Below are positions 13,091-14,824 of a stretch of DNA of 41,040 nt, piece by piece; the stretch's first letter is position 1; each line of letters begins with the position of its first letter. This DNA is from an uncultured Candidatus Berkelbacteria bacterium (lineage in GTDB: Bacteria > Patescibacteriota > UBA1384 > 2-12-FULL-50-11), in assembly GCA_903839975.1 (NCBI GenBank), contig CAIMEH010000005.1:1-41040 (forward strand), read 5' to 3'. Both the position numbers and the translations under genes were made by a program. The notes under the pieces were generated by a model. The model was given only the letters and a program-made list of their open reading frames with translations, ran no database searches and was not told where the DNA came from.

Positions 13091-13420
13091 CTAGTAAGTT
13101 TCGACAATCTTGCCCTTACTAAAGCAACCTCTTGACGTACGCTTAGCAAGCCTTGAAGCTTCAACTTTTTCCATATCAATACCATCGAACTCCAAAATAG
13201 CATCGACTGTATCGAGAAGATCTCCAATCTCCTCAATTGTTTTGGCCCGACTATTCATTGCCTCAACAACCTCCCCTGCCTCCTCCAGGGGTTTTCGAAA
13301 TAAATAACCCCTCAGTTCTTCGCCAGAGGCTTCGTGTTCCATGAAGCGAACACCCTTAGCCCTCATAACAGTTGGGTCATTATCACGTACTAACTTAGGA
13401 ACACCCTTTTCCATTGGCAT
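13091..13420 (-). CDS. PRA-PH/MazG-like nucleotide pyrophosphohydrolase
   Basis: PKLVRDNDPTVMRAKG..FRKPLEEAGEVVEA..EEIGDLLDTVDAILE. Confidence 0.8.
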   Translation of the reverse strand: MPMEKGVPKLVRDNDPTVMRAKGVRFMEHEASGEELRGYLFRKPLEEAGEVVEAMNSRAKTIEEIGDLLDTVDAILEFDGIDMEKVEASRLAKRTSRGCFSKGKIVETY

Positions 13421-13471
13421 GTTAACTTCATATAGCCGCCAACTATAGATGTCAAATTACCATTGAAAAAT

Positions 13472-13489
13472 TGTAAAGTTTGCTTTACA
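13472..13489. promoter_or_regulatory. Palindromic operator between -35 and -10
   Basis: tgtaaag-tttg-ctttaca, perfect 7 bp arms; ttgaaa (13463) and tacatt (13486) as -35/-10 with a 17 bp spacer. Confidence 0.7.
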
Positions 13490-13501
13490 TTATTGTTAAT
13501 A

Positions 13502-14197
13502 ATGACCGAGATAAAGCTGTTGCTTCGTCAGTTGCGCAACGAAAGAGACTTAAGCCAAGAAGAGCTGGCTAGAGCTTTGAATTTATCGCGCCAGTCTATT
13601 ATCTCACTTGAGCGTGGCGAATATCTGCCAAGCTCCCCCGTTCTACTGGCCTTACTGGAATACTTCAACTGTCCAATCGAGCGATTGGTGGACGGTATCA
13701 ATATTACTTACCACGAAATTAACAACATAGAGGAAGGAGGTGAGCAAAACATGCAATTAGTTCCATGGAGTCCTTTTGAAGCCATCGACAAGATGCACGA
13801 CGAGATGAATACGATGTTCGAGCGTAACTTTACCCGCGGAGATTGGTCGCACGCCTTGGGCACAGTGGCCGGAGCCATGAATATTCACGAGAACGAAACT
13901 GAATACGAGATTGAGATTCAAGCACCTGGCTACAAAGAAGATGAGCTTAACCTGGAGATGACCGAAGATACCTTAACTATCTCTGGCGTTAAAAAAGAGG
14001 AAGAGAAAAAAGAGGGCAAAAACTTGGTTCGCCGCGAATGGCAGCACAGCGAGTTCTCTCGCTCGGTGCGTTTTGCGACACCGATCAAAGAAGATAAGGT
14101 TGAGGCTAAACTTGAGAACGGTACTTTAACGATTACCGCGCCAAAAGTTGAGCCGGTTAAACCAAAAATAAAGAAAATTGAAGTGAAGAAAAAGTAA
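13502..14197 (+). CDS. XRE-family HTH domain fused to Hsp20/alpha-crystallin small heat shock protein
   Basis: LLRQLRNERDLSQEELARALNLSRQSIISLERGEYLPSSPVLLALLEYFNCPIERL (HTH), in frame to an Hsp20 domain (EYEIEIQAPGYKEDELNLEMTEDTLTISG..FSRSVRFATPI..AKLENGTLTITAPK); internal SD aaggaggtgag and ATG at 13751. Confidence 0.9.
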   Translation: MTEIKLLLRQLRNERDLSQEELARALNLSRQSIISLERGEYLPSSPVLLALLEYFNCPIERLVDGINITYHEINNIEEGGEQNMQLVPWSPFEAIDKMHDEMNTMFERNFTRGDWSHALGTVAGAMNIHENETEYEIEIQAPGYKEDELNLEMTEDTLTISGVKKEEEKKEGKNLVRREWQHSEFSRSVRFATPIKEDKVEAKLENGTLTITAPKVEPVKPKIKKIEVKKK

Positions 14198-14219
14198 AAA
14201 GGGCCTCTCGGCCCTTTTT
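14196..14219. terminator. Bidirectional intrinsic terminator
   Basis: aaaaagggcc-tctc-ggcccttttt. Confidence 0.85.
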
Positions 14220-14221
14220 CT

Positions 14222-14824
14222 TTACTTGATAGTAATTGTATTTATAACGTCGCCGACTGCGATCTTATGAACGACATCGAGGCCAGAGGTAACTTTACCG
14301 AAAATCGTATAGCTATGTGGTAGTTGTGTGTCGGCGAGCATAATAAAGAACTGGCTTCCGTTAGTGTCCGGGCCGGCATTGGCCATGGCTAGAACACCCT
14401 CTTTGTAACCGTTTTTGTAGCTATCGGTAGCCGCATTTAGCTCATCAGCAAACTTGGCGCCATAAATAGATGTGCCACCAGTACCGTTGCCGTTTGGATC
14501 GCCACCTTGAATTACAAAGCCCGGCTCAACGCGGTGGAAGGTTAGACAGTCGTAGTAACCATTCTTAGATAGTGTGGCGAAGTTTGTAACAGTCTTTGGA
14601 GCGTCGTTAGGATATAAATCGACGACGATATTGCCCTTGGCGGTCTCGATAGTCGCCGACGTGGCACTGACTTGGGTGAAAGTAGTTGGGTCGTTCTTGG
14701 CGTTTGAGTTGCTAGATACACATGCATTATTATTCATTGTTGTTGGTTTACTCCTTGGTATTAACAAAAAGGCACCAACAATAACTATGGCGCCAATTGC
14801 AATATATAATATATTTTTATTCAT
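14222..14824 (-). CDS. Cyclophilin-type peptidyl-prolyl cis-trans isomerase, membrane anchored
   Basis: [38 protein letters not shown]-terminal TM. Confidence 0.93.

Follow-up and report, generated by a model that had tools for sequence, protein, structure and literature searches.

Known heat-shock repressors are either titrated by separate chaperones or melt themselves. The HspR/HAIR system relies on a MerR-family repressor that takes DnaK as its co-repressor and controls chaperone and clp genes. ClgR is an actinobacterial XRE-type regulator of clp genes that acts as an activator and carries no α-crystallin domain (ACD), and RheA, the Streptomyces repressor of small heat-shock proteins (sHsps), controls hsp18 as a protein in its own right. 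The HrcA/CIRCE system works through an inverted repeat in the dnaK and groESL promoters, is autoregulated and is modulated by chaperones in some species (PMC8533110, PMC6032397). GroE stimulates HrcA of Campylobacter jejuni, which is itself an intrinsic thermosensor (PMC8533110), and chaperone feedback on HspR and HrcA is established in H. pylori (PMC6032397).

Here we describe a gene of an uncultured Candidatus Berkelbacteria bacterium (Patescibacteria) that joins an XRE-type helix-turn-helix (HTH) domain to an Hsp20-type sHsp in a single reading frame. The gene lies within a 41,040-nucleotide stretch of DNA (contig CAIMEH010000005.1), hereafter the window, to which all unprefixed coordinates refer. 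Taken as a whole, our observations are best explained if this fusion is the master heat-shock repressor of Berkelbacteria, released from its promoters by heat, and we consider this probable. The likeness to HrcA/CIRCE is close, with an inverted repeat in the dnaK and groESL promoters, autoregulation and a possible coupling to chaperones, but the protein family and the operator are different, and HrcA, which serves the rest of the phylum, has no chaperone domain. ClgR offers a parallel in XRE control of protease genes and RheA in being a dedicated sHsp repressor, although neither is an HTH–ACD fusion set over a whole chaperone regulon. With HspR the Berkelbacteria protein would have in common that a repressor coupled to a chaperone controls chaperone and clp genes (PMC6032397), but its chaperone module is covalent and a sHsp, and its DNA-binding domain is of the XRE rather than the MerR type. 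Judged from sequence, the fusion would act like HrcA from outside the HrcA family, as a kind of heat-shock repressor with a built-in chaperone. The open-access literature that we searched gave no account of an XRE–Hsp20 fusion, nor any of how Berkelbacteria control their heat-shock response.

The fusion protein and candidate modes of stress sensing

An HTH–Hsp20 gene or a clear derivative of one is present in 44 of 55 genomes of the class (Candidatus Berkelbacteria, Patescibacteria), a count that includes two genomes retaining only a remnant of the ACD (G011 and G028) and one (G025) where the end of a contig truncates the gene. In the window the full-length product, or long form, is a protein of 231 residues encoded on the forward strand (13502–14197, stop codon 14195–14197). 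By its domain content it is a member of both the XRE and the Hsp20 families: residues 8–61 (13523–13684) match the XRE/Cro-C1 model HTH_3 (E = 2.8e-15; 56.5 bits, cut-off 23), residues 128–229 (13883–14188) match HSP20 (PF00011; E = 1.7e-19; 70.2 bits, cut-off 20.8), and all Pfam models that match the protein are of the HTH or HSP20 type. The second region comprises the ACD and a C-terminal I-x-V motif (IEV). AlphaFold2 modelling on 21 relatives shows both domains with high confidence and residues 69–121 (13706–13864) with low confidence, the latter corresponding to a linker and sHsp N-terminal arm whose length varies among relatives. The top Foldseek matches are sHsp structures, and the closest solved relatives of the HTH are a PbsX-family protein (9k3w, E = 2.4e-20) and CylR2 (1utx, E = 6e-17), small XRE regulators of about 66 residues that lack an ACD.

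The ACD itself is well conserved. Residues A202, G207 and L209 of its A-x-x-x-x-G-x-L motif are invariant in 30 sequences, and 39 of 42 fusions carry an I-x-I-like motif at the C terminus (I/V/L-x-I/V/L within the last 20 residues, a loose pattern). ACD features are also kept in fusions that are unable to make a free sHsp (G005, G007, G022, G035, G019, G040 and G027), which implies a role for the ACD inside the long form. At L149 (G028:C6:162782-163949) and L150 (G011:C10:1804-3085), only an ACD remnant follows an intact HTH, in ORFs of 144 and 154 amino acids; both genomes still have operators upstream of dnaK. These two derivatives provide a natural test of whether regulation needs the ACD.

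In the mechanism that we propose, a dimer of the HTH would bind the operator TGTAAAG-N4-CTTTACA and block RNA polymerase at every promoter of the regulon, its own included. From one and the same mRNA, a near-leaderless first start devoid of a Shine-Dalgarno (SD) sequence would yield little repressor, and a strong internal SD would yield much free sHsp. The ACD would serve as the stress sensor, with the repressor co-assembling with the free sHsp. Upon heating, the repressor would be pulled off the DNA into complexes of sHsp and client proteins (or its dimers would dissociate), and the chaperone genes would be switched on; once free sHsp, DnaK/GroEL and Clp had cleared the clients, the repressor would be freed and the regulon turned off again. 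Sequence comparison shows the anatomy of the gene, its conservation, the regulon, the two start signals and the exchange of regulators, and from there we infer occlusion of the polymerase, the low ratio of repressor to chaperone and sensing by the ACD.

The main rival to this scheme accepts the protein as a heat-shock repressor and differs in where temperature is sensed: by the HTH dimer, which may itself melt with heat, or through the stability of the protein overall, leaving the Hsp20 part to provide dimerization and a co-expressed chaperone. A precedent is HrcA of Campylobacter jejuni, which senses temperature intrinsically and binds better under the stimulus of GroE (PMC8533110), and the retention of operators at dnaK in the two genomes with a mere ACD remnant points the same way. 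Conservation of the ACD in the other fusions, even those without a free sHsp, argues against it, and we regard this rival as a serious but somewhat unlikely alternative to sensing by the ACD.

Two predicted translation starts in one gene

The promoter of the fusion gene is compact. A −35 element, TTGAAA (13463–13468; TTGACA in most relatives), and a −10 element, TACATT (13486–13491), are separated by a 17-nt spacer that harbours the operator TGTAAAGTTTGCTTTACA (13472–13489; TGTAAAG-TTTG-CTTTACA), a perfect 7-bp palindrome whose right arm overlaps the −10 element. The palindrome occurs once in the window, with no mismatches, against 0.26 occurrences expected with two mismatches allowed. The ATG of the long form (13502) lies 10 nt downstream of the −10 element. 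The HTH frame then runs open through the junction gaggaaggaggtgagcaaaacATG, which contains an internal ATG (13751, Met84) preceded by an SD sequence (aggaggtgag region, core aaggaggtga, 13735–13744). From this ATG a short form of 148 residues, a free Hsp18-type sHsp, can be read to the common stop (13751–14197). A hairpin resembling an intrinsic terminator (GGGCC-tctc-GGCCC followed by a T run, 14198–14223) follows directly, and the gene appears to be monocistronic. It is flanked by two genes on the reverse strand, one for a secreted-looking cyclophilin-type peptidyl-prolyl isomerase (14222–14824) and one for a MazG-like protein (13091–13420). The palindrome, the −35 and −10 elements, the SD and the two ATG codons are all found where the original prediction had placed them, as is the open frame from the HTH into Hsp20, which is conserved in relatives.

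Comparison among relatives supports the proposal that the gene could make both a fusion and a free Hsp20, and the dual start is well supported in silico. The predicted pairing of the internal SD with the anti-SD averages −10.5 kcal/mol over 32 loci, as compared with −6.5 kcal/mol after synonymous recoding (combined p = 6e-8, the p-values of individual loci being modest). The corresponding values are −2.6 kcal/mol at 179 other in-frame ATG codons and −1.6 kcal/mol at the long-form start. Among relatives the SD is encoded by differing residues (EGGE, KEAT, EEVR or KKGD), indicating that it is the DNA, rather than the peptide, that is conserved. Its length, its ACD, a PWSPF-type N-terminal arm and the C-terminal I-x-V motif mark the short form as a full sHsp of the Hsp18/Hsp20 kind, from which it differs in starting inside a repressor gene. 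Positions 3–147 of the 147 in the NCBIfam model Hsp18_Clos align to residues 85–229, at a similarity far below the model's cut-off, and Met84 is therefore where a complete protein of the Hsp18 type would be expected to start.

It could be argued that the internal SD and ATG are relics of the fusion event and that the long protein alone is made; nine relatives have in fact lost the internal start and kept a shorter fusion. We find this improbable, since synonymous recoding over the 32 loci yields weaker SD sequences than those present, whichever residues encode them, and since eight of those nine relatives have also lost or broken the sHsp N-terminal motif (the exception, G027, has a PWEP motif), as would be expected if start and motif belonged to one translated product. 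Together, the nine relatives and the two ACD remnants indicate that a free sHsp and an intact ACD are both dispensable for the circuit, a point that counts against our reading.

The long form was also expected to be nearly leaderless, and the comparison agrees: it often lacks an SD and begins 0–5 nt past the transcription start predicted from the −10 spacing. The predicted leader is 0–5 nt in 16 of 29 relatives, the window (about 4 nt) included. Of the 29 relatives for which the distance could be measured, eight have their first ATG exactly 8 nt past the operator, so that the predicted transcription start falls on the ATG itself; in G036 the ATG is only 3 nt past the operator, and the promoter must sit differently. 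The start codon of clpP likewise lies exactly 8 nt past an operator, and is thus predicted to be leaderless, at L163, L164, L171, L180 and L183, in five genomes belonging to the same family as the window.

The operator and its regulon

We searched for the operator in its exact form and with one single-base variant in either arm (TGTMAAG-N4-CTTTACA), a pattern that misses weaker sites. Forty-nine of the 55 class genomes contain between one and six sites each, mostly perfect palindromes, and the reversed pattern used as a control was positive in one genome only. Outside the class the operator was found in 5 of 136 genomes. The window's own genome has six perfect sites, located at the fusion's own promoter and upstream of groES–groEL, dnaK, dnaJ, clpP and a Clp ATPase gene.

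All 113 sites outside fusion genes were examined, with the identity of target genes checked against Pfam, and 105 of them lie upstream of a recognizable gene. Chaperone and protease genes make up 97 of the 113 (dnaK 36, groES 24, dnaJ 12, clpP 11, Clp ATPase 7, grpE 4, ftsH 2 and hsp20 1), and the further targets are ABC-transporter ATPase genes (four), nusA (two) and HTH genes (two), one of the last (in G025) being probably the fusion itself, cut by the contig end. TTGAC, whose place just upstream of the operator is what one would expect if repressor and RNA polymerase compete, occurs within 10 nt upstream at only 64 of the 105 target sites. From sequence comparison, the regulon is well supported in silico.

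The gene had been envisaged as a self-contained, autoregulated switch. Autoregulation is supported, as the operator is predicted to sit in the spacer of the fusion's own promoter in nearly all relatives. The self-contained part of the claim is wrong, given that the same operator precedes dnaK, groESL, dnaJ, clpP and Clp ATPase genes.

Another DNA-binding protein might read the palindrome, with the HTH–Hsp20 gene just one of its targets. This possibility draws on G001, a genome in one contig (95% complete) that has neither an HTH_3 gene nor a match to dnaK, yet carries sites at clpP and at a Clp ATPase gene; either the repressor has recently been lost there or a different protein reads these sites. 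A congener, G006, has six sites, dnaK and groES among them, which makes recent loss of the repressor in G001, with its sites now decaying, a plausible explanation. Three observations stand against a foreign reader and lead us to hold it quite improbable. Nearly every genome has the operator in the promoter of the fusion itself. The operator and the fusion are jointly absent from six genomes (G008, G012, G014, G026, G031 and G034), so that the operator is missing from 6 of 11 genomes without the fusion and from none of 44 with it (hypergeometric p of about 1.6e-5, a value that ignores kinship, family f6 accounting for three). Finally, HTH proteins of the same type have the same palindrome at their own promoters in distant bacteria: of 58 standalone XRE proteins belonging to this subfamily, from Bacillota and others, 13 have GTAAAG-N4-CTTTAC within 250 nt upstream of their own gene, where the remainder of these loci would predict about 0.9.

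Individual genomes depart from the common pattern in various ways. G010 carries the fusion with its own operator only, a pattern suggestive of a regulon reduced to autoregulation. DnaK was not found at E ≤ 1e-30 in G001, G008, G010, G014 and G053, the first four being 82–97% complete and G053 71%. In G024, where the fusion is divergent, three operator-like sites (L218–L220) have no recognized target, some being apparently intragenic, and a fourth (L221) lies at a second HTH gene. The ABC-transporter ATP-binding proteins downstream of operators (L167, L182, L187 and L194) come from four genomes in two families, and nusA follows the operator at L229 (G041) and L233 (G028). A second, standalone Hsp20 (L031, G000:C20:25085-25399), 30% identical and without an operator, belongs to a paralogue present in most Patescibacteria genomes.

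Heat control could also act on the message, since RNA thermometers are common for sHsps, and one of the ROSE or fourU type over the internal SD would then govern the short form. The SD region of the window is indeed predicted to be mostly paired (0.79), but predicted pairing is inconsistent among relatives, ranging from 0.29 to 0.79 with a mean of 0.53, and positions 13400–14300 gave no Rfam match. We have rejected an RNA thermometer as very unlikely.

Distribution of the fusion and the absence of HrcA

HrcA (PF01628) is absent from all 55 class genomes, the window's included, in a search whose control was positive in 7 of 14; of the 136 other Patescibacteria sampled, 122 have it. CIRCE follows the same division, with none in seven class genomes sampled as compared with 74 of 99 others. 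These absences are a further argument for linking the fusion protein to its operator. The best reading is that, specifically in this lineage, HrcA gave way to a repressor that carries its own chaperone. Five genomes (G008, G012, G014, G026 and G034) have neither the fusion nor the operator nor HrcA, and in family f6 dnaK sits closely behind grpE.

Open fusions come from relatives in more than 15 families. On a DnaK tree most branches of the class carry the fusion, which is missing in at least two separate places, from family f6 and from the incomplete genome G031. In 380 genomes of the phylum an HMM of the fusion found no case outside the class, only standalone Hsp20 or HTH proteins, and a GTDB-wide motif scan of 423 relatives, which used one HTH motif and was not exhaustive, likewise gave no convincing case outside it. 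The distance from the HTH to the internal start takes 20 distinct values in 32 loci, and the long frame is open in all 32; read in the other frames, the same linkers contain stops in 24 of 32 (+1) and 31 of 32 (+2). Among the relatives surveyed, no separate HTH and hsp20 genes split by a stop codon were found. A junction with a perfect SD and a start codon does look like two adjacent genes, but more than 40 genomes independently show an open fusion, the linkers come in 20 lengths and an in-frame stop never occurs; the joining of two genes by a sequencing or assembly error, and with it the loss of a genuine stop, has next to no chance of being the explanation and was rejected. The fusion is real and conserved.

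Tentatively, and at somewhat less than even odds in our own estimate, we would go further and suggest that the repressor senses stress through its own chaperone domain, as a minority subunit within the sHsp oligomers of the cell. Binding of unfolded client would then directly remove it from heat-shock promoters, the ratio between the two starts would set the threshold, and one gene would encode the whole feedback loop of sensor, repressor and first effector, having displaced HrcA throughout the class.

The gene is a conserved case of a near-leaderless start combined with an internal SD, through which a regulator and an effector may arise from one gene. It supplies a candidate heat-shock circuit, together with a regulon defined by its operator, for a branch of the Candidate Phyla Radiation that is uncultured, and the exchange of HrcA/CIRCE for XRE–Hsp20/TGTAAAG-N4-CTTTACA would represent a clean, lineage-wide swap of regulators. 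Because the chaperone lies within the repressor, the idea of titration can be put directly to the test, for which a single protein, a single operator and an unfolded client would suffice. A covalent fusion of repressor and sHsp would be a new implementation of chaperone feedback.
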